From Bacillus sp. FSL K6-3431 (GTDB lineage: Bacteria; Bacillota; Bacilli; Bacillales; Bacillaceae_C): DNA of 64,000 bases. Under the pieces are notes generated by a model that searched no databases, had not been told where the DNA came from, and worked only from the letters and a program-made list of their open reading frames with translations. A program made the position numbers and the translations under genes. Each line of letters begins with the position of its first letter. Positions within the stretch are counted from its first letter, which is position 1. Below are positions 6,047 through 57,599 of the stretch, piece by piece. The DNA lies in NCBI RefSeq assembly GCF_038002605.1, contig NZ_JBBOCT010000001.1:744001-808000 (forward strand). The letters run 5' to 3'.

Positions 6047-6222
6047 TACTATGTAATAAAGAATTTTCATGAAATCACTCCTAAATTATAGTATTATATA
6101 ATATATTCTAATTCATAATTCATTTCTCTCAATTTTATATCTTTCTTTCCTAATTCTGGATTAACTTTGGTAATACCTTTTTTGAATTTCAGTATTTCAC
6201 TAACCTGCCCCATTAATTGAAG
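6047..6222. repeat. Host-flank duplicate: 5' stub of a small membrane-protein gene plus upstream DNA
   Basis: These ~175 bp are almost identical to 52568-52742, which is the beginning and upstream region of the small membrane-protein gene at 52277-52591. Here only the first eight codons (minus strand, ATG at 6068-6070, MKILYYIV) survive before the transposon right end interrupts the gene. The window therefore holds two copies of one locus, each hit by a related Tn3-family element at a different point. Confidence 0.8.
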
Positions 6223-6261
6223 AAAACCTCTAAGGATCAAATGAATACTTTATACAAATCT

Positions 6262-6290
6262 AGTTTACATAATAGCATATTACCGGCATT
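6262..6290. repeat. dif-like site a, followed by hairpin
   Basis: AGTTTACATAA is an exact reverse complement of the XerD half of Bacillus subtilis dif (TTATGTAAACT). It is followed by a 6-7 bp spacer and a diverged second arm ATTACCGGCAT. The site belongs to a longer dispersed repeat that starts ATGAATACTTTATACAAA and runs into the GGATCTTCAA hairpin at 6297-6317. Relatives are at 20970, 43471, 45110 and 47496. Confidence 0.55.
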
Positions 6291-6322
6291 AAAAAAGGAT
6301 CTTCAATTTGAAGATCCCTTTT
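6291..6322 (-). terminator. Terminator downstream of the anti-sigma gene
   Basis: Near-perfect stem GGATCTTCAA / TTGAAGATCC flanked by A6 on one side and TTTT on the other, so it can act in either direction. It ends 17 bases before the stop codon of the minus-strand gene at 6339. Confidence 0.7.
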
Positions 6323-10561: not shown

Positions 10562-10570
10562 GTGTAGCCT

Positions 10571-10714
10571 TAAAATAAAGTTTGATTAAAAATATCTCGT
10601 AAGCCCACATTTTACGTTAAATGAAAATAATCCGTTTTGAAAAAAGATTGATCAAAACGGATTCATTCTTTGTGAAATACTATGCAATTTTTATAAAAAA
10701 GTTTGATCATTTTC
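10571..10714. repeat. Covarying-hairpin element, copy A
   Basis: Three spaced copies of an A-rich TTGATCA motif: AAAGTTTGATTAAAA at 10577-10591, AAAAAGATTGATCA inside a hairpin, and ATAAAAAAGTTTGATCA at 10693-10709. The middle copy forms the loop of a perfect 12-bp stem (10629-10640 with 10652-10663, arm AATCCGTTTTGA). Other copies keep the loop but have different, still paired, stems. Confidence 0.6.
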
Positions 10715-10739
10715 TACTTATATTGTTCCACAAAAGTCA

Positions 10740-13154: not shown

Positions 13155-13438
13155 AAAGAATCGCAGCCGCTTTACAGCAACAGTCCCCAGTGAAACTTAA
13201 GTCTATAACTTGCTTGTATCATTCGCTTTTTCAGCCGTTCCCTGGATATCCAATGCCGATTGACTGAAGAGACTGAAGGGGGCCTATCAACTGGATTGCC
13301 CCTATTATGAATAGTCAACGTGAAAGAGGGCCTGGTAGACGAAAATTGGTTAATAAAAGCACAAAAAACTCGTTGATGTTTGACGAGTTTTTTTGTAGTG
13401 CTTCTTTATATAAGTTCTATATAAGGCATATGTTGATT
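13155..13438. other. Gene-free stretch with one hairpin
   Basis: No supportable gene. The sequence changes from GC-richer to AT-rich around 13330. The only clear feature is the terminator-like hairpin at 13363-13394. Confidence 0.5.
13363..13394. terminator. Bidirectional terminator
   Basis: AAAAAACTCG and CGAGTTTTTTT pair around a TTGATGTTTGA loop; A and T runs on both sides allow use in either direction. Confidence 0.7.
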
Positions 13439-13535
13439 TAAAACAAAGTTTGATTAAGAAAGTGTCACGAACGTTGATTTTGTAATAGAATAAGCCCTTT
13501 TATTTTGAAAAAAGATTGATCAAAATAAGAGGGCT
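13439..13535. repeat. Covarying-hairpin element, copy B (lacks third motif)
   Basis: Motif 1 AAACAAAGTTTGATTA at 13441-13456. The hairpin stem 13493-13508 with 13520-13535 (AGCCCTTTTATTTTGA against TCAAAATAAGAGGGCT, one G-T pair) carries the constant loop AAAAAGATTGA. The downstream third motif seen in other copies is absent. Confidence 0.55.
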
Positions 13536-13626
13536 ACGTTTTTCTATATAATTCCTTTCTTTATAAGAATAATATAGCTACCGGATTATCGACTAGATAC
13601 CTAGCAAAAACTAGTATACCGTTTAA

Positions 13627-14334: not shown

Positions 14335-15519
14335 ATGTCTGATATTAGTCACACTCAAGTTTCTAACCCTAAATTGCCATTGATTAGCTTATTGGCACTT
14401 TCAATGGCTGGTTTTATCTGTATAATGACCGAAACTGTTCCAGCCGGTTTACTTCCTCACATTAGTAACGGCTTAAATGTTTCTACTCCACTTGCAGGGC
14501 AGTTAGTTACCTTATATGCAATTGGATCACTTGTAGCCGCTATACCGGTCACATTTGCAACCCAAAGCTGGAAGAGAAAACCACTACTGCTTTTTGCAAT
14601 CGGATTGTTTTTTATATTTAATACGATTACAGCTTTTTCTTCAAATTACACTTTAACTTTAGTTGCTCGATTTTTTGCAGGAGTAGGTGCTGGAATTGTC
14701 TGGAGCATGCTAACTGGATATGCAAGAAGGATGGTTGCCCCAGAATTAAAAGGTCGAGCTACAGCAATAGCTATGGTGGGAACACCTATTGCTCTGAGTT
14801 TAGGAGTACCAATCGGTACTATTTTAGGAGAATCCTTAGGTTGGAGAGCTGTTTTTATAATAATGTCGATATTAACTTTTATCTTAATTATTTGGATTAT
14901 AGTAAAAGTTCCTGACTTCCCTGGTAATTCAAGTGGAAATCGGGTTAGTATATATAAAGTGTTCACCATACCTGGAGTACGTCCCATTTTATCTGTTGTT
15001 ATCCTATGGATGATAGCTCATAACATTTTGTACACATATATTGCACCATTTCTTGTAGAGATGAACTTAGGTACGAAAGTAGGGATCTCATTATTTATCT
15101 TCGGTGCTCTTTCACTAATTGGTATATGGGTTACCGGTGTCTTAATTGATAAGAAACTCCGACTACTTGTCTTATTAAGTCTAATTGGTTTCTCATTGTC
15201 TACTTTGTTATTCCAATTCTCAGGTGGATATACTATTAGCATTTTTATTGGTATCGCCCTATGGGGAATAACGTTTGGTGGTGCTGCTACTTTATTACAA
15301 ACTGCGCTAGCTCAATCAGTAGGAGAAAAAAATGTAGACACCGCAATGTCCATGAATACCACAGTTTGGAATGCTGCTATTGCAGGTGGAGGTATTATAG
15401 GAGGTATATTACTAGACTCATTTGGAAGTATCTCTTTTCCACTAACTATTCTTATACTAACCGTTCTAGCAATTGTTATCGTCGTCTCTAACAAAAAACA
15501 CGCTTTCGTAAAACAATAA
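14335..15519 (+). CDS. MFS efflux transporter (DHA1 sugar/drug exporter type)
   Basis: 394 aa with 12 hydrophobic segments. Early ETVPAGLLPHIS and motif A region SWKRKPLLLFAIGLF, plus WSMLTGYARRM in segment 4 and GTPIALSLGVPIGTILG in segment 5, place it among DHA1 exporters related to YdhP, SotB and chloramphenicol/arabinose efflux proteins. AAGGAG lies 10 bases upstream of ATG. It is divergently paired with a TetR regulator and followed by a strong terminator. Likely role is export of a toxic compound sensed by the regulator. Confidence 0.9.
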   Translation: MSDISHTQVSNPKLPLISLLALSMAGFICIMTETVPAGLLPHISNGLNVSTPLAGQLVTLYAIGSLVAAIPVTFATQSWKRKPLLLFAIGLFFIFNTITAFSSNYTLTLVARFFAGVGAGIVWSMLTGYARRMVAPELKGRATAIAMVGTPIALSLGVPIGTILGESLGWRAVFIIMSILTFILIIWIIVKVPDFPGNSSGNRVSIYKVFTIPGVRPILSVVILWMIAHNILYTYIAPFLVEMNLGTKVGISLFIFGALSLIGIWVTGVLIDKKLRLLVLLSLIGFSLSTLLFQFSGGYTISIFIGIALWGITFGGAATLLQTALAQSVGEKNVDTAMSMNTTVWNAAIAGGGIIGGILLDSFGSISFPLTILILTVLAIVIVVSNKKHAFVKQ

Positions 15520-24268: not shown

Positions 24269-24336
24269 ATTTTTAAAATATTGTTGTACAGAAACTCATC
24301 CATTTATGGACACGTAGTAACTAAACTATTTTTCTA

Positions 24337-24423
24337 CCTGTCACTTTAGGAGTTACTTTGCATCGATTTCAAGTGTTATTTTGCACTATAATTAAATATG
24401 ATAAAGCCCAATTTCTCAATTTT
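24337..24423. repeat. Long dispersed repeat R2, copy 1
   Basis: About 86 bp starting TGTCACTTTAGGAGTTACTT and ending in the arm AAAGCCCAATTTCTCAATTT. It matches 38798-38885 at most positions. A hairpin with GAGAAATCGGACTTCTTTT follows. Possibly an insertion-sequence terminus; no open frame is attached. Confidence 0.6.
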
Positions 24424-36399: not shown

Positions 36400-36447
36400 T
36401 TTTCAGCCTCTTCTATTTTATTTCGAAATTTACATCAAATCTACAAA

Positions 36448-36512
36448 TTAAATTTCCTTTAATTCTTTTACTTTTCTATAGAAAGTAGTTTTGGACATAT
36501 TGGCTGTAGCTT
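36448..36512 (-). pseudogene. 3' fragment of a serine recombinase gene
   Basis: Encodes NMSKTTFYRKVKELKEI and stop, the same as the end of the gene at 42496-43092. Similarity starts abruptly at 36512, where the covarying-hairpin copy C begins. Confidence 0.75.
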
Positions 36513-36513
36513 T

Positions 36514-36655
36514 GAAACAAAGTTTGATCAAAAATCACGCATAAACCTTCATTTTACGGAAAATTTAAAGAATCCATTTTGAAAAAAGATCAATCAAAAT
36601 GGATTCTACAGATTTAAATATAGATGGAATTTTTATAAAAAAGTTTGATCATTTT
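36514..36655. repeat. Covarying-hairpin element, copy C
   Basis: Motif 1 AAACAAAGTTTGATCAAAA (36516-36534). Hairpin 36571-36582 with 36594-36605 (AATCCATTTTGA / TCAAAATGGATT, perfect 12 bp), loop AAAAAGATCAA. Motif 3 ATAAAAAAGTTTGATCATTTT (36634-36654). Full three-motif layout. Confidence 0.6.
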
Positions 36656-36722
36656 AAGTCCATTTTGTTGAACATTACCTCATTGGTTGAAGAAAAATGG
36701 TCTATGATATTCACCTAAATAG

Positions 36723-37043: not shown

Positions 37044-37092
37044 AAAGCTAAATTCCTCGTTATTTATAGCGAAGAATTTAGCTTTTGTTTTT
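37044..37092. terminator. Terminator downstream of asd
   Basis: AAAGCTAAATTC / GAATTTAGCTTT perfect 12-bp stem then TGTTTTT. Bidirectional in form. Confidence 0.65.
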
Positions 37093-37273
37093 CAACAATC
37101 GCGCCCTTTTGCTGAACAATGTACAAGGCATCATCTATTAAATCTCCCCATTATATCGGTAAGAATGCAACTACAGTTATATCAAGGGCTAAAGGGGTAG
37201 TAACAATAGAGTCAACGATTACAAAAACTCGTAATTAAAATCAAAATACAAAACAAAGAGATTCCTTATGGCC

Positions 37274-38649: not shown

Positions 38650-38800
38650 ACCTTTATCATTCAGAAGATGTAAGGTCGTAATCACCTGTCATTTACTGGT
38701 ACATTTCTTGTCATTCGGTGGTAAAAATTATCAGCGTTGGTACATTTCATTGGCTGTAATCATCCCAGAAACTTTGAAAGCAATAAAGTTTGTTATACAT
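38650..38800. other. Possible IS21-type terminus
   Basis: GTCATTTACTGGTACATTTC and CAGCGTTGGTACATTTC form spaced imperfect repeats, as in the multiple terminal repeats of IS21-like elements. An IstB fragment occurs elsewhere (15836-15962). Weak evidence. Confidence 0.25.
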
Positions 38801-38885
38801 GTCACTTTAGGAGTTATTTTGCATCTATTTTAAGTGCTATTTTGCACTATGAATAAATATAAAAAGTCCAATTTCTCAATATTAA
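38798..38885. repeat. Long dispersed repeat R2, copy 2
   Basis: Matches 24337-24423 (TGTCACTTTAGGAGTTATTT ... AAGTGCTATTTTGCACTAT ... CAATTTCTCAAT) and is likewise followed by a hairpin (AGTCCAATTTC / GAATTGGACC). Confidence 0.6.
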
Positions 38886-38952: not shown

Positions 38953-39696
38953 TTACTTGAAATACCATTTGAGAGCATTCGTATACAGGATTTTATCGGT
39001 AGCTTGTTCATCAAACACCTGTTGGATCAATTCTATATCTTCATACCCAAAACGCCTTTTTGCTCTTGTAGATGGTAAATCCGTTCCAAACATAAGAGCA
39101 TCTGGATTAATCTTATAAATCGATTTTAAGACATTCTTAACATTCAAACCTACACGTCCAAAACCAGTAGCTTTTACATGTACCCCTTTATCTACTAGCT
39201 TTAATAAATGTGGTAGTCCTTCTTCAGATAACCCTAAATGGTCGATTGATATTGCTGGTAATTTTTCAATAGTTGATGCAATCTCGGGTAACCTTTTTGC
39301 ATCAATATACAACTCACTATGCCACCCTACTAAATCATGAACTCTTCTAGCAAAGTAATCCAACTTCGATAAATCTTCCGAACCGCCCCTCTTAATATTA
39401 AAGCGTAATGCTTTAACCCCGCATTCATTTAAATTTAGTATTTCTTTCTCCGTAACTGTAAATGGTAATTGTGTTACTCCACAAAATGATGAACCCATCT
39501 GTTTAAGTGCCTTTAATAAATATTCTTGATCAAATCCTTGGAATGACCCAGATACAATAGCTCCACCTAGTACATTTAAATCAGCGATTTCATTTTTATA
39601 ATCTTCTACAACATAACTCGGAGGCATATATCCTTGGTTTTCGATAATTGGAAAGTCAAAATCAATAATATGAAAATGTGCATCAAAAATTCTCAT
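38953..39696 (-). CDS. Amidohydrolase-family TIM-barrel hydrolase
   Basis: 247 aa, amidohydrolase-2 type. Metal-ligand HxH appears as FDAHFHIID at residues 4-12, a later histidine in AISIDHLGLSEEG (about 153), and the essential aspartate in LMFGTDLPST (about 205). The family hydrolyses lactones or decarboxylates aromatic acids (2-pyrone-4,6-dicarboxylate lactonase-like); substrate here cannot be assigned. AAGGGG precedes ATG. A covarying-hairpin element (copy D) lies directly upstream and the R2 repeat hairpin downstream, so this is a single-gene unit between repeats. Confidence 0.85.
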   Translation of the reverse strand: MRIFDAHFHIIDFDFPIIENQGYMPPSYVVEDYKNEIADLNVLGGAIVSGSFQGFDQEYLLKALKQMGSSFCGVTQLPFTVTEKEILNLNECGVKALRFNIKRGGSEDLSKLDYFARRVHDLVGWHSELYIDAKRLPEIASTIEKLPAISIDHLGLSEEGLPHLLKLVDKGVHVKATGFGRVGLNVKNVLKSIYKINPDALMFGTDLPSTRAKRRFGYEDIELIQQVFDEQATDKILYTNALKWYFK

Positions 39697-39730
39697 TACA
39701 ATTCCCCTTTCTTTTCTTTAATGTAGCTTT

Positions 39731-39871
39731 AGAATAAAGATTGATTAAAACGTTCTCTTCAACCTTTATTTAACAACAAATAGAAAAACTCCATTTTGAA
39801 AAAAGATTGATCAAAATGGAGTTTCTTTTATAGCTAGGTACGAGTTTTTTATAAAAAAGTTTGATTATTTT
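39731..39871. repeat. Covarying-hairpin element, copy D
   Basis: Motif 1 AATAAAGATTGATTAAAA (39733-39750). Perfect 14-bp stem AAACTCCATTTTGA / TCAAAATGGAGTTT (39786-39799, 39811-39824) with loop AAAAAGATTGA. Motif 3 ATAAAAAAGTTTGATTATTTT (39851-39871). Confidence 0.6.
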
Positions 39872-39921
39872 AATACTCCTTATTGTACTAACGCACCTGT
39901 AATAAATAGTTTCTCAACACA

Positions 39922-40407
39922 TTAATGCTCCTTATGTCTTTTCAATAAAAATTCATAGCGCATTGTATGGCTTACATCTTTGAATCCTTGCTTTTCATAT
40001 AAAGTAATAGCGCCAATATTTTCAGACAGTACATTTAACTCTAAGTAATCTAAATTTCGATTTTTAGCCCATTTGTTTGCTTCTAATAACAAAGCGGAAC
40101 CAATTCCTTGATTTTGATATTTGGTTCCAACAATTATATCAGTAATAAAAGCGTATTTATGTTCAACCAAACACGTATAGGATGGTGTGATTAGTTCTTG
40201 AATAAGTAAAAAACCTACTGTACAGTTATCGATTTCAGCTATTAAAATATCCGAATCCTTTTCATTGATTGTCTTCCTGATAAACTCTACATCCTGCTTA
40301 GCAGGCTTTATATATTTCGGCTGAAAGTTTGACATTTTTAAAAAAAGTTCTTGATATAAAATTTCTATTTGATTAACTTCATCTAGCGTAGCTAACTTTA
40401 TTTTCAT
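39922..40407 (-). CDS. GNAT-family acetyltransferase between two hairpin elements
   Basis: 161 aa. Acetyl-CoA motif YQNQGIGSALL (about residues 98-108), preceded by FITDIIV, and closing NIGAITLYEKQGF are textbook GNAT features. Ribosome site TTGGAGG. It is flanked by hairpin copies D and E in the same orientation and has no operon partner. This single-gene arrangement between like repeats resembles a gene cassette. Substrate unknown. Confidence 0.88.
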   Translation of the reverse strand: MKIKLATLDEVNQIEILYQELFLKMSNFQPKYIKPAKQDVEFIRKTINEKDSDILIAEIDNCTVGFLLIQELITPSYTCLVEHKYAFITDIIVGTKYQNQGIGSALLLEANKWAKNRNLDYLELNVLSENIGAITLYEKQGFKDVSHTMRYEFLLKRHKEH

Positions 40408-40539
40408 ATTATTCCTCCAAAGAATTTTTAATATTAGATAAGCAATATACTCTTGGACTACATTGTAACATGTTTCAAAATATTAAATTAGCTATTCGGA
40501 ATCTGATATTTAATGAGCTAATCTGCTCCGTTAGTGAAA

Positions 40540-40763
40540 TAAGAAATCCTATTAATTCTTAAAGCTAATAGGATTTCTTATCAATCTTTTTTATAAATGA
40601 TCAGACTTTGTTTTAAATTATCAAACTTAATTTTAAAACCACAGCTGTAAACATTGATTATATATATAGAAGAAACCCACGCGCTTTGAAAAAAGATTGA
40701 TCAAAATGAGTGGGTTTTATTTTGGAATGAATTTGTTTTTTATAAAAAAGATTGATTAAAATC
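40540..40763. repeat. Covarying-hairpin element, copy E, with an inverted relative
   Basis: 40673-40689 pairs with 40701-40717 (AAACCCAC...TTTGA / TCAAA...GTGGGTTT, internal bulge) around AAAAAGATTGA; motif 3 TATAAAAAAGATTGATTA at 40741-40758. To its left (40541-40614) an inverted relative carries its own 12-bp stem GAAATCCTATTA / TAATAGGATTTC and the complement of AAACAAAGTCTGATCATTTATAA. Confidence 0.55.
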
Positions 40764-40799: not shown

Positions 40800-42209
40800 T
40801 TATTTAAAACCATGACTTTTGTTTTTGACTGCCATATTACAAAACTTAAACATAGCTCCTGCAACAGTTTTAACTTCTTCGTTAAAAATAGCCATAGTCT
40901 CAAGTATGTTGGCTGGTTGAATATTAATTTCCTCTAAATCATCCCTTACTTCTTTTCCTACTCCTTTTACAACTAATTGAATTAGTGTGAAATTCTTCTT
41001 GCGAATAGCAATAATATCATATCCTTCTTGTGAAATTTGCACGTACTTTGAAGAAGTAAATTCTGAAGACAAGAAATTGTAACTAGAAAGAAATGAATTT
41101 TCCATAAATATATACATCTGTCTATCATTCAAATTTTGATGTAACATATCTTTGTATCTTGTATAGATTTTACTTTGAGAAAAAACAATAGGGTTATTTA
41201 CATTTTTTATAATAGAAGTGATTTCTTCTAAATTATATTGACTAGTCGTTATCTTTAACTCAGAATCCTCAATAGAAATACACGATAAAAGAGCAACCTT
41301 TTCCAAACCAGCTAATAAATGATTAAATTGTAGTATAGATTTATTATCATTTTTTAATTTATTTAAGGTAGTATTAACCTTTGCAAATTCTTGACTATAA
41401 TTCAAATCTATATTGTACAGTATGGGAAAAGCAGTAAGTGCCATTACGTGATTCATCTTTTCATAATCAAATTCATTAAATTGGAACTTAGAAACTCTTT
41501 CACGTATTATATTCAAACCTTTAGAATCACTATAAATTTTATTAATTGCATTTATACAAACATTTAGAGTATCGCTTTCTGAATATGTATTCTCTAAAAC
41601 TTTTTCTGCTTGATTTTTGTATTTTGAGCTTCCATCGAATTCCCATTTGATTAAAGCTTCAAACCTTTTATTTGGATTAAACTTTAAAGTAGTTTCATTT
41701 TTAGAAAAATAACGTTGTATATCTTTTTTTCCGCTCCATTCATCAAAGGGTAACTTAGCTATTTCAACATTAGAACTTAATATTGAAATAGCTTTAATTG
41801 TATTTATAATTTCTTTAACTGATTCCTTATTTAAAAAATGTTCTTCTTTTAAATATTCATAAATAAAAGAAAAATACTTGTAATATGTCTTATTAGTATT
41901 TTTTAATTCTTCGACTCTTCTGTTAAATTCTTCTATACCCTCTTCTCGAATAATATCAAAGTACTCAATAAAAGTTGCAGTTCGCTCTTGCATTTTATTA
42001 AAAATATCTAATAATTCATTAAACAACCATATCTTTCTATTGTCGACTATACTAGCCTTTTCCATCATTACCAATAACATGCCATATGTAGATATACTAA
42101 CTGTTTCTTTATGAACAAATTCATGTTTTAATATTTGTTTCAGATTATTTTTTTCATTCGCCACACTAATATGAGTATCATTTGAAAATGCATAATTTCC
42201 TTCTCTCAT
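40800..42209 (-). CDS. Uncharacterised 469-aa protein with HExxH motif
   Basis: No family recognised. Residues 26-40 read QILKHEFVHKETVSI, where HEFVH fits the HExxH zinc-peptidase signature close to the N-terminus; a possible third ligand is E75 in NKMQERTATFIEYFD (helix downstream), as in gluzincin-type ERxA patterns. The remaining ~390 residues are helical, lysine/glutamate rich, with a C-terminal beta-like segment (SQEGYDIIAIRKKNFTLIQL). No signal peptide or membrane segment, so cytoplasmic. Ribosome site AGGTGATGG. It lies between hairpin repeats and a serine recombinase gene. A role as effector in defence or in toxin activity is speculation from context; the HExxH could also be chance. 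Confidence 0.6.
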   Translation of the reverse strand: MREGNYAFSNDTHISVANEKNNLKQILKHEFVHKETVSISTYGMLLVMMEKASIVDNRKIWLFNELLDIFNKMQERTATFIEYFDIIREEGIEEFNRRVEELKNTNKTYYKYFSFIYEYLKEEHFLNKESVKEIINTIKAISILSSNVEIAKLPFDEWSGKKDIQRYFSKNETTLKFNPNKRFEALIKWEFDGSSKYKNQAEKVLENTYSESDTLNVCINAINKIYSDSKGLNIIRERVSKFQFNEFDYEKMNHVMALTAFPILYNIDLNYSQEFAKVNTTLNKLKNDNKSILQFNHLLAGLEKVALLSCISIEDSELKITTSQYNLEEITSIIKNVNNPIVFSQSKIYTRYKDMLHQNLNDRQMYIFMENSFLSSYNFLSSEFTSSKYVQISQEGYDIIAIRKKNFTLIQLVVKGVGKEVRDDLEEINIQPANILETMAIFNEEVKTVAGAMFKFCNMAVKNKSHGFK

Positions 42210-42344: not shown

Positions 42345-42420
42345 TAGTGGAAGAAGTAATCCTAACTAACAGGATTTCTTATCAAAGCCTTTTTTATAAA
42401 TGATCAGACATTGTTTAAAA
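42345..42420. repeat. Inverted relative of the covarying-hairpin element
   Basis: AATCCT / AGGATT arms, then CTTATCAAAGCCTTTTTTATA and AATGATCAGACATTGTTTAA. On the minus strand this gives AAACAATGTCTGATCA followed by the TTTATAAAAAAG stretch, as at 40541-40614. Confidence 0.45.
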
Positions 42421-42447: not shown

Positions 42448-42495
42448 ACTTATAAAAATAAAATTTTCTAGACTAAGAAACACGAGAATAGGAAA

Positions 42496-43092
42496 TTAAA
42501 TTTCCTTTAATTCTTTTACTTTTCTATAAAAAGTAGTTTTTGACATATTGGCCATCTTCATTGCTGCAACGGCTGTGATCTCTTTATTTATCCATTGTTT
42601 ATGTGCTTGTAAAAATTCAGGTGTAATTACAGCATGAGGCCTACCTAAATGCTTTCCTTTATCCTTCGCAGCTTGAATACCTTCAGCTTGTCTAATTTTG
42701 CTGTCAATCCGTTCTTTTTCAGCAAATGCTGCTAAGACGGTTAAAATAACTTTTTGTATTGCTACCTTTATTATATCATCTTGTTCATCGGAAGTATTAA
42801 TCATGGGTTCTTTGATAAATTTCAATTGGATTCCGTTCTCCACAAACCATTCATACTCTTTTAATGTTTCATTCATAGTCCGCCCCATACGTGTGATGGA
42901 ATCAAAAACTATTTCATCACCATTTCGGACCAACTGCTTCAATAATTGATATTTCGGCCGATCAAAATTTTTCCCACTCATTTTTTCAATAAATACGTCT
43001 CGATCATCTATACCTTCCTTTTTCATAGTTTGTACTTGTCGATCTTCATTTTGGTCTTTATCAGAAACACGTATGTAAGCAAACCGTTTCAT
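42496..43092 (-). CDS. Serine recombinase (resolvase/invertase family)
   Basis: 198 aa. N-terminal AYIRVSDKDQNEDRQ holds the nucleophilic serine at residue 10; FDSITRMGRTM supplies catalytic arginines; the long E helix (AEKERIDSKIRQAEGI) and helix-turn-helix (AVAAMKMANMSKTTFYRKV) complete the fold. It is most like plasmid multimer-resolution or invertase proteins (Sin/Bin type), distinct from the TnpR copies. A 3' fragment of the same gene lies at 36448-36512 joined to a hairpin element. A palindrome plus direct repeats upstream (43145-43264) could be its site. Confidence 0.92.
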   Translation of the reverse strand: MKRFAYIRVSDKDQNEDRQVQTMKKEGIDDRDVFIEKMSGKNFDRPKYQLLKQLVRNGDEIVFDSITRMGRTMNETLKEYEWFVENGIQLKFIKEPMINTSDEQDDIIKVAIQKVILTVLAAFAEKERIDSKIRQAEGIQAAKDKGKHLGRPHAVITPEFLQAHKQWINKEITAVAAMKMANMSKTTFYRKVKELKEI

Positions 43093-43264: not shown

Positions 43265-43470
43265 GGATCAAACCAAAATATGGAATGAAATAAATTGATG
43301 AAACTAAGTTAGAATGCTGAGATTATTTTATTTATAGCTTTTTGTGATTTCTATATATTTCAGTTTTTTTCATTTGTTTATTTTGATAATAGTCTTAATA
43401 TTATTTTAAGGGAAATTATTGGTTATTTAATTAGATACCATTGTATCAAATGAATACTTTATACAAACTT

Positions 43471-43498
43471 AATTAACATAATTGGATGTTATTGGCAT
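43471..43498. repeat. dif-like site d with hairpin
   Basis: AATTAACATAA, 7 bases, TTATTGGCATT, in the long repeat context (TGAATACTTTATACAAACTT upstream; GGATCTTCC hairpin downstream at about 43504-43525). Confidence 0.5.
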
Positions 43499-43769
43499 TA
43501 AAAAGGATCTTCCAGTTGGAGATCCTTTTTTAATGCTTGTTCAATTAAATACTCTCATAGGGGTTACTGGACGACCAAGGGGCGAATGTTGTATCTCTTT
43601 TATTCCACAATCGCGCCCGATTGCTGAACAAACTATTGCAAGTTTCTTTTGGAAGATAAAGTAACCTACTAACCGTTTACTCATAAAAGTCAATTTCATA
43701 TTACTCTAACTATTTGAAACTTATTACCTCGTTACATTTTGAAAGATATATTAATAAATAAAAGGAAGT

Positions 43770-45015: not shown

Positions 45016-45107
45016 TCAGATCTATTTCATTTACTCTAACACATATTGAGAATCTCCCATTCAGTTCAACAAAATCTCAAAGTCTATAATGAATACTTTA
45101 TACAAAT

Positions 45108-45521
45108 CTAGTTAACATAATAGCATGTTATCGGCATTGAAAAAGGATCTCCAATTGTTATGCCAAATGGACCAAAAGGGGATATATAATCAAATGTACC
45201 AATCATTAACGTGCCAGATGCTTTTTCTACAAATCGATGTGTATGAATGAAAGAACTGAAAGCTCCCTTCAGCATAATATCTACAAACATATTAGGTTTC
45301 TCCATTTGGATTACTTTAGCAGTTAGTTTTTGTTTAATACCAAAGTGAATTCCTTCCCAGGTGACGGTATCTCCTTCTTTTAATAACCCCTCCGTCACTC
45401 CACCGACAACTTTTTCTTTTGTTTTAGACATAGTTTTAGTATGTATATTTACGTTTCTTGCAAGATCAAAGCAAATATTTACAGGGGATTGGATAAATTG
45501 CTCATGTCTTATAATAGGCAT
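45108..45521 (-). pseudogene. SRPBCC-family protein truncated by a repeat
   Basis: Starts PIIRHEQFIQSPVNICFDLA and contains TFDYISPFGPFG, the pattern of 150-aa SRPBCC (START/polyketide-cyclase-like) ligand-binding proteins. Homology ends at about 45160, exactly where the GGATCTCCAATTG hairpin remnant of dif-like repeat e begins; the last ~16 codons read through that repeat. Roughly 30 C-terminal residues, including the long alpha helix, are lost. Confidence 0.72.
45110..45138. repeat. dif-like site e
   Basis: AGTTAACATAA, TAGCATG, TTATCGGCATT, preceded by ATGAATACTTTATACAAAT. The downstream hairpin is truncated at the junction with the SRPBCC gene, as if deletion or recombination ended there. 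Confidence 0.5.
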
Positions 45522-47415: not shown

Positions 47416-47495
47416 AAAATTCACCTACCTTTTCCCCTATTATACCTAAAGTTTGTTAATTTTTATCAATAAAAATTAATATTATATACAAATTT

Positions 47496-47523
47496 AGTTA
47501 ACATAAAGTTTCTTATCGGCATT
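47496..47523. repeat. dif-like site f
   Basis: AGTTAACATAA, AGTTTC, TTATCGGCATT, preceded by ATTATATACAAAT. A degenerate GGATCTTC hairpin follows. It lies 90 bp left of the second Tn3 transposon. Confidence 0.5.
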
Positions 47524-47712
47524 AAAAAGGGATCTTCAAATCGAGGATGCTTGTTTGCTGCGGAATTTCAGGGGTATGATAAAAGAGTCAGTGGCTGTGG
47601 CATTATCTAATATAGGGGCACAGCCAACATTTTGACATAAAACCCACGTTAAGACATTTTTTACCATATAAAAAACCGATATCCTTTACTCTAAGGGTAC
47701 CGGCTCAGGAGT

Positions 47713-56172: not shown

Positions 56173-56298
56173 TGAATCCACCTCCTAAAGCTATATATTC
56201 CATTTTAATAAGAATTAATCCTCCATCTTATTGAACTAACCTGCTAGTTAGTTTAATAAGATCCCAATTTATATCAAATGAATACTTTATACAAACCT

Positions 56299-56326
56299 TG
56301 TTAACATAATAGCAATTTTGGGAAGC
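56299..56326. repeat. dif-like site g
   Basis: Reverse complement: GCTTCCCAAAA, TTGCTA, TTATGTTAACA. Arms match B. subtilis dif at 8 and 9 of 11 bases. Preceded by the usual ATGAATACTTTATACAAAC. Like site b it lacks the GGATCTTC hairpin. Confidence 0.5.
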
Positions 56327-57043: not shown

Positions 57044-57599
57044 AAAACACTCTCCTGTTCAAAACCTAAATTTTATTTATTCTATCATCGATTAACAAAT
57101 AATAGTAATACTTTTTCTTCAACTAAAGTGCCCGTTAGCTCATTTACTCACTATTTTAATTTTAACACAAAATTCCATTTATTTTCCTCGGAAAAATAGG
57201 ACCTTTTCGTTAAGGTCCTACTTGGCATCTTCAATTATTGCACCCGTTACTTCCCTGTTTGCCATTCCTAATTCCTTTAATGAAAAAGCACTTTTACTTT
57301 TTCATTAAACAAAACTGCCCGTTAATTAAAGTGCATTTCTTCACAATCTACCATATATCTTTTCAATTTTTCTATAAATTCAGTTTACAATAAACTACTT
57401 ATTTAAGAAAATCCTTTCAAAGATTTATTTAACGCTCATTTCTAATAAAAAAATCCTGCGTTGAACAGGATTTTTTATCAAACTTTATTATAAATGATCA
57501 ATCTTTATTTAAAATTATCGATCTATATTATTAATTATCAGTAATGAGATATTTTATATATTCTTTTACTTTCTTTTACATTGCTCATTTTAATCCCCT
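57044..57599. other. Repeat-rich intergenic region
   Basis: No gene supported. Contains hairpins TAGGACCTT / AAGGTCCTA (57197-57220) and AATGAAAAAG / CTTTTTCATT (about 57278-57305), two GTGCCCGTTA/CTGCCCGTTA-type repeat copies, and an inverted relative of the covarying-hairpin family at its right edge. Confidence 0.5.
57445..57540. repeat. Inverted relative of the covarying-hairpin element near topB
   Basis: Stem AAAAATCCTG / CAGGATTTTT, then complements of AATAAAGTTTGATAAAA, ATAAAGATTGATCA and ATAGATCGATAATTT. Three spaced GAT-containing motifs, as in the forward copies. The stem may double as the topB terminator. Confidence 0.45.

Follow-up and report, generated by a model that had tools for sequence, protein, structure and literature searches.

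Integron gene cassettes are single-gene units that stand in arrays, with a structured site beside each gene, and MITEs, as well as the Bacillus cereus repeat bcr1, are non-autonomous repeats that are moved in trans. Closer to the elements described here are the Tn7-like transposons. According to section 6 of PMC8649781, Tn7 itself has three sites in its left end and four in its right end, and in the survey reported there (Benler et al. 2021), elements are delimited outward from tnsB and have median lengths of 14-29 kb; adjacent insertion producing multiple ends is mentioned as well. In a Bacillus, the 38-kb island BCEGI-1, located behind glmS in B. cereus ATCC 10987, is described as containing two tnsABCD sets (PMC2359905), and stem-loop families described in Bacillus (PMC2267715) possibly overlap with the hairpin repeat that is the subject of the present analysis.

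We analyzed a 64,000-nucleotide stretch of the genome of Bacillus sp. FSL K6-3431 (hereafter, the window), where a first-pass annotation had noticed copies of a hairpin repeat around a gene for a GNAT family acetyltransferase. From comparison of sequences, we estimate at about 0.88 the probability that these repeats are left ends (LEs) of Tn7-like transposons, of a lineage that extends across Bacillales and in which many copies belong to non-autonomous mini-elements. The units described here differ from integron cassettes in that they have target site duplications (TSDs), two different ends each and no companion integrase detected with recombinase queries from the host, and from MITEs and bcr1 in that they contain cargo genes between long, asymmetric ends of the Tn7 type. 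With the Tn7-like transposons of the survey (PMC8649781), the lineage shares Tns core genes, cargo inside the element, repeat arrays (~20-bp units) at either end, and plasmid copies; the difference is that 11 of the 13 TSD-flanked units found here are 0.7-3.1 kb long and lack tnsB, and because the survey starts from tnsB, units of this kind could not be found that way. The likeness to BCEGI-1, namely Tn7-like core genes in a Bacillus, is one of description, the ends being absent from that description (PMC2359905). The words 'hairpin' and 'terminator' are absent from the main text of PMC8649781, and in the open-licence literature, we found no report of tnsB-less single-gene Tn7-like units in Bacillales or of a terminator hairpin within a Tn7-type end. 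Tn7-like transposons have so far been catalogued from the transposase outward; what appears new here is a non-autonomous variety, in which the same kind of end packages one or a few genes without tnsB and the LE contains a covarying hairpin.

All five copies (A-E) of the hairpin repeat reported in the first-pass annotation are indeed present in the window (Table 1), with an 11-nt loop that is constant apart from a variant in copy C, and copies D and E lie, as described, in the same orientation on both sides of the GNAT ORF. The TTGATCA motifs reported beside the hairpin were recovered in the form TTGATYA, at boxes 1 and 3 of LE D; they are direct repeats of the loop sequence, with spacings of about 60-66 and 55 nt. 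The LE architecture comprises a TGT tip, three dispersed boxes of the AAAGWTTGATYA type, and a terminator-like hairpin with the middle box as its loop, and the outer edge of the copies is sharp, conservation ending at TGTAGC. In copy E, the hairpin and box 3 are clear and the outer tip is degenerate or lost, with a possible tip near 40646; this copy overlaps or touches the right end (RE) that faces LE D. An earlier RE model that also displayed this RE had been seeded with it; independent LE and RE models were derived from 15 elements that are defined by TSDs and come from genomes other than the host's, these elements having been chosen using a family consensus. In the window, the LE model recovers copies A-E at E values of 2e-38 to 4e-13 and nothing else below 0.005, the next match being at 57493-57451 (E 0.0057) and the best match in the reversed window reaching 0.17. 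The best window match of the RE model is the end facing LE D, from model position 1 on, with an E value of 1e-5 against 0.52 for the best match in the reversed window. Models of this kind would allow whole-genome annotation of such units.

Table 1. Features of the window that bear on the hairpin repeat and the GNAT unit (positions in the window)
Feature	Position	Strand	Basis and remarks
Copy A, LE	10563-10721	+	tip 10563; LE model E 2.3e-38
Copy B, LE	13431-13569	+	tip 13431; LE model E 4.2e-13
Copy C, LE	36505-36663	+	tip 36505; LE model E 3.5e-32
Amidohydrolase gene outside LE D, flanking/target DNA	38953-39696	-	Pfam PF04909; P. muralis comparison
Copy D, LE	39722-39881	+	tip TGTAGC at 39722, inward = rightward; LE model E 2e-31, model position 1 = 39722
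Box 1 of LE D, AAAGATTGATTAAAA	39737-39751	+	
Hairpin of LE D, covarying, 14 bp	39786-39824	-	loop 39800-39810 contains box 2
Box 3 of LE D	about 39848-39871	+	repeat family
GNAT acetyltransferase gene, 161 aa, probable cargo	39922-40407	-	Pfam PF00583, E 2.2e-17
RE facing LE D	40580-40643	-	TGTGG tip 40643, tandem ~20-nt boxes; independent RE model 40643-40582, E 1e-5
Copy E, LE of the next unit	about 40636-40763	+	LE model E 2.7e-13, model positions 27-152 only
469-aa ORF beside LE E, possible cargo	40800-42209	-	no Pfam family
Partial RE-like boxes, weak	42389-42420	-	RE model E 0.012
Partial RE-like tandem boxes	57478-57514	-	RE model E 6e-4, model positions 7-43

That the same LE closes TSD-flanked elements with tns genes argues for the identification of the repeat as a Tn7-like LE. 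On plasmid pLEW6932 (NC_009130; locus L176), an LE at 1611 and an RE at 15240 bound a 13,630-bp element with the TSD GATAA on both sides, which encloses tnsA, tnsB, tnsC, tnsD and tnsE, all five proteins supported by Pfam, together with cargo. The tns block consists of tnsE, tnsD, the ATPase, the Mu-transposase-C protein and tnsA; the LE repeat lies downstream of this block with cargo in between, and a tandem-box end precedes tnsA. Two genomes of the host's genus contain elements of 12,686 bp (G005, TSD GCTTT) and 13,858 bp (G010, TSD TGTGT) that have REs with tandem boxes and enclose tnsB, which is the one tns gene established for these two, all five having been located inside the ends in pLEW6932 only. 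TGT...ACA tips are present in LE D, the RE at 40643 and the elements of pLEW6932, G005 and G010, the tip of copy E not being clear, and the ~20-bp repeat arrays found at both ends are dispersed on the left and overlapping on the right. Among the eight TnsB loci that were fetched, an LE, an RE and a TSD of this type are unambiguous in two, those of G005 and G010. An LE and an RE without a TSD were found in G021, an LE and no RE in G012, and no LE in G029, where the contig ends, or in G019; exact 5-bp repeats accompany ends of a differing kind in G020 and G011, the case of G020 being ambiguous because the tip of the hairpin repeat has the same 5-mer. TnsB matches are present in 11 of the 34 genomes of the family, some of them short fragments. 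The TnsB of pLEW6932 found no match in the host genome, so that mobility there is putative, and the host copies are non-autonomous or stranded. Compared to the pLEW6932 element, which looks autonomous with its tnsA-E, exact TSD and 13.6 kb, the GNAT unit has an LE of the same family and no tns genes.

Under the scenario that we favor, a full member of this lineage has a tandem-box RE and a hairpin LE that enclose its tns genes and cargo, the boxes would be bound by TnsB, and insertion produces a 5-bp duplication, as the flanking sequences show. Mini-elements that lack tnsB and contain one or a few cargo genes would have been mobilized in trans by related TnsAB(C) proteins. Elements can land directly side by side, often 5 bp apart, giving rise to cassette-like arrays. 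Compensatory change maintains the hairpin around the fixed middle box, with termination of cargo transcripts as the most likely role of the hairpin. Transposition, rather than an integron, thus appears to disseminate genes in cassette-like packages among Bacillus-like bacteria. If the units are indeed moved in trans, they would amount to an integron-free cassette economy in Gram-positive bacteria that is invisible to tnsB-keyed searches.

The statistics of the TSDs bear on these mini-elements. The scan of the loci yielded 311 candidate ends and 111 facing pairs 0.3-15 kb apart (hits were de-duplicated, pairs were not); an exact 5-bp TSD flanks 13 of the 111, compared to 1.0 expected from re-paired flanks, and with up to one mismatch allowed, the count is 16, compared to 3.8 expected. 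The two exceptions to the compact size range among the 13 are a 5.9-kb pair (L173) and a 12.6-kb pair (L002), the latter containing IS21 genes and many palindromes, and one of the 13, the host locus L014, is bounded by ends with a different type of box. The LE model search resolved 106 LEs, and its 11 partner listings with an exact TSD, a count that comes with no chance baseline, correspond to 10 distinct elements. No TnsB match was obtained with tblastn in the loci of either the 13 pairs or these 11 partners. An RE-cargo-LE unit with CTTTC on both flanks was found in genome G023, and two plasmids that share a DinB gene and the element diverge right after GCTACA, which is the tip read on the opposite strand. 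Ends like the RE of the GNAT unit, with a TGT tip and tandem boxes of ~20 nt, occur elsewhere as well, and the window-seeded model gives many more, some of them directly outside an LE tip. With another transposon end 4-6 nt outside the LE in 11 of the 106 LEs (7 at exactly 5 nt), compared to 2 of at most 318 control positions, stacking of elements side by side can explain the cassette-array look of parts of the island.

In the GNAT unit, LE D and the facing RE delimit 922 bp, and the GNAT gene is the sole ORF of at least 60 aa between the ends; tns genes are absent, hence the classification as non-autonomous. Given the matches to the LE and RE models, the unit 39722-40643 consists of one LE, one GNAT gene and one RE, and GNAT is probably the cargo of a 922-bp non-autonomous element, the ends of which are placed by the models and which, as a whole, is a reconstruction from them. 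Comparison with P. muralis fits this placement on the left side: the amidohydrolase block (84% match across 769 nt) extends up to 39721 and stops immediately before the tip of LE D, and no element is present at the homologous site in P. muralis. The 5-bp TSD is not intact, TTTAA preceding 39722 and GCTGT following 40643; therefore, the end at 40643 may be that of another element, or the junction may have been rearranged, and the history of the unit is not a clean one. This mismatch, the failure of the pLEW6932 query to detect TnsB in the host, the lack of a tip in copy E and the low score of copy B would all be accommodated if the window copies were long-dead fossil ends, with GNAT caught by chance between unrelated LE and RE pieces, a possibility that is compatible with the repeats being Tn7-like ends and that we take seriously even while considering it unlikely. 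What speaks for an actual unit is that an LE and an RE facing each other with one gene in between is the layout of several TSD-bounded mini-elements, and that the host genome contains two further units with exact repeats on both sides, one of 582 bp (L020, 18290-18871; TCTAA, with the RE tip TGC) and one of 799 bp (L014, 5903-6702; GAATA) that includes a 118-aa ORF and has boxes of a related but different type.

The LEs are widespread. BLAST searches with copy D or A as the query recovered 37 and 40 plasmid records, respectively, mostly from Bacillales; two 'Klebsiella' and two 'Stenotrophomonas' plasmid records match as well, one of which, NZ_CP031260 (Klebsiella quasipneumoniae pL22-3), has a replicon cluster and long stretches in common with staphylococcal plasmids and is probably mislabelled. 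The host genome yields 24 BLAST matches, fragments included, and 22 matches to the covariance model, which, at E values up to 0.001, detects the repeat in 14 of the 16 genomes of the genus and in 29 of the 34 genomes of the family, the latter set including the former. The exact two-box pattern was found in 34 stretches from named genomes of many genera, and the repeat is present in one phage record and two viral contigs. Restriction of the matches to a single conserved gene, which the first-pass annotation had named as the observation that would speak against its reading, did not occur: the genes flanking the LEs differ and include those for MepB, CBO0543, Vga-type proteins, MsrA, S41 peptidase, DinB, and others. 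In the phage Mimir87 (L040, about 6000), an LE adjoins msrA, and in the staphylococcal plasmid p1005578_vga of S. saprophyticus (L038, 20001-20157), an LE adjoins a Vga-type ABC-F gene, so that the range of the LEs, across many Bacillales genera, plasmids and a phage, includes a position beside a ribosomal-protection gene. The S. saprophyticus plasmid was also compared with S. aureus plasmids as a potential empty site; the foreign segment exceeds the repeat and vga together in size, and its border does not coincide with the tip of the repeat; accordingly, this pair provides no clean empty site. In the orthologous pair G019/G020, the repeat is vertically inherited, and several other differences resemble IS insertions.

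A second level of mobility might involve palindromes with a GGGCGC core. In the LE, the palindrome has the form TTATTCAACWAAC-GGGCGC-GATTGTTGAACAAC; a strict core of this type lies 26-29 nt inward of box 3 in 33 of the 137 anchored LEs, and of the 17 units examined, eight have a core 175-179 nt from the tip, the other nine having none there. The motif is also common away from the hairpin repeat, with at least 307 hits (278 unique strings) compared to 15 in the reversed sequence, counts to which both strands can contribute and which come from loci chosen for the repeat. Of 223 ends of blocks shared by two loci, 13 fall on a palindrome in each partner, compared to 1 of 669 random positions; in the printed list of these 13 ends, nine belong to the IS110 family, two represent one region twice and one comes from the vertically inherited G019/G020 pair, which leaves a single clear swap, that between L150 and L164. 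This is a 2226-nt block with a regulator and an SDR gene that is 98.8% identical between G002 and G023; its two junctions lie within palindromes, and the surroundings beyond them differ. The arms of the palindromes are, on average, no more complementary than random ones (4.63 native, 4.62 random), and the outer and inner arm pairs are jointly weakly raised, both reaching at least 9 in 0.96% of 415 pairs compared to 0.37% at random; among the TSD-defined elements, L164 scores 9.5 (outer) and 9.0 (inner), but a score of 9.5 is also reached by its own last site, so that the arm scores are non-decisive. An order-wide DNA search with the L164 cargo found matches in 48 of 299 genomes, most of them diverged among the matches listed. 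It is therefore improbable, albeit worth entertaining, that the mini-elements are in part shells, the cargo modules of which are swapped at the LE palindrome by a putative recombinase; if they were, gene movement would proceed at two levels, integron-like cargo exchange combined with Tn7-like transposition of the shells into plasmids, phages and chromosomes. Apart from the LEs, palindromes of the form TTCAACAATC-GGGCGC-GATTGTTGAA are frequent near gene ends (37091-37116 and 43603-43628 in the window, and many loci), often followed by other terminator-like modules. We also observed IS110-family elements that end in the palindrome core (..ATACGAACGGG), at L025, L039, L122 and L154; the palindrome thus seems to serve as a target for IS110 as well.

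The first-pass annotation had described the copies as cassette boundaries, and in effect this holds, since they delimit mobile units that often contain one or a few genes. The proposed role of the copies as attC-type recombination sites is not supported, however: the copies are transposon LEs with TGT tips, several boxes, and 5-bp TSDs in the units for which both ends were resolved. An integron-like system, in which a tyrosine recombinase would insert circular single-gene cassettes at attC-like repeats, could explain why the elements lie at the 3' ends of varied genes and in same-orientation clusters, and why the two junctions of a 2.2-kb cargo block with 98.8% identity between two genera fall within palindromic sites with a GGGC core. 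Nevertheless, we deem such a system highly improbable: exact 5-bp TSDs and TGT tips fit DDE transposition, and whereas attC has conserved boxes at the foot of the hairpin and a variable terminal loop, here, on the contrary, the loop and the boxes are kept while the stem varies. Furthermore, phmmer searches of the loci with the host recombinases as queries found five tyrosine recombinase ORFs, the nearest hairpin repeat being about 1.9 kb away, and no shared companion. Three candidates for an autonomous split form, with halves of the repeat around a transposase, were considered as well, and none was convincing.

The Tn7-like LEs identified here contain a hairpin that is itself under apparent constraint. 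Copies A, B, C and D fold with energies of -14.7, -15.3, -17.2 and -16.7 kcal/mol, respectively (z -4.4 to -5.1), and copy E, with a mismatched block within the stem, folds at -16.1 kcal/mol (z -5.5). The compensatory stem changes claimed in the first-pass annotation are borne out on wider sets of hairpins. In 14 aligned unselected copies, at least one double compensatory change occurs in 8 of the 14 predicted pairs, and pairing is preserved in 82 of 84 cells of the inner six pairs. A strict centre pattern retained 50 of 120 extracted hairpins; in this larger set, 356 of the 400 cells of the outer eight pairs are paired, compared to a mean of 297 and a maximum of 314 in 1000 shuffles, and there are 59 double-change cells (none of 1000 shuffles with as many), the shuffles ignoring kinship among the copies; the retention pattern largely fixed the inner six pairs and the loop, and their constancy in this set hence proves nothing. 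The gene on the inner side of the LE is directed towards it in 67 of 79 resolved cases (from simple ORF picks), a T-rich tail follows the hairpin as judged by eye, and a simple terminator scan did not call the hairpin. Most likely, the hairpin ends cargo transcription and shields the LE and the flanking DNA from transcripts, a proposal that fits the orientation of the cargo and the covariation, and a terminator-like structured RNA, kept by covariation, may be its side role. A transposon end doubling as a transcription terminator is the question raised by a hairpin that covaries around a fixed transposase-type box. That the repeats are nothing but mobile intrinsic terminators or structured RNA elements of 3' regions, copied along with genes and devoid of any end function, would agree with the covarying hairpin, the T-rich tail and the position 3' of co-oriented genes in those 67 of 79 cases, but is very unlikely given that the boxes beyond the hairpin show about the same conservation as the loop, that there are fixed tips, partner ends and TSDs, and that Rfam has no match at the gathering score.

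Several further observations concern the surroundings of the repeats. With dnaA at 3,299,624, most copies in the host genome lie after leading-strand genes, an orientation bias that was considered as a sign of single-strand mechanisms and was judged by eye on the listed positions. At the gathering score, the one Rfam match in the window, with none to the hairpin repeat, is part of a group II intron (RF00029, 10736-10821) that adjoins copy A; at L120 and L121, intron-like 3' ends, recognized by eye, are located directly beside the first copy of the repeat, inside or next to a palindrome. A 60-nt repeat (36445-36504 and 42493-42552, 97% identity) duplicates the 3' end of the resolvase gene 42496-43092 beside copy C. 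Another repeat with repeated boxes, TGTCACTTTAGGAGTTATTTTGCA..., found at 24329-24413 and 38790-38874, looks like another family of transposon ends, and a separate intergenic repeat family, TATACAAACCTAGTTAACATAA...AAAGGATCTTC, is represented in the window at 6208-6308, 43417-43517, 45056-45156, 47450-47552 and 56253-56309.
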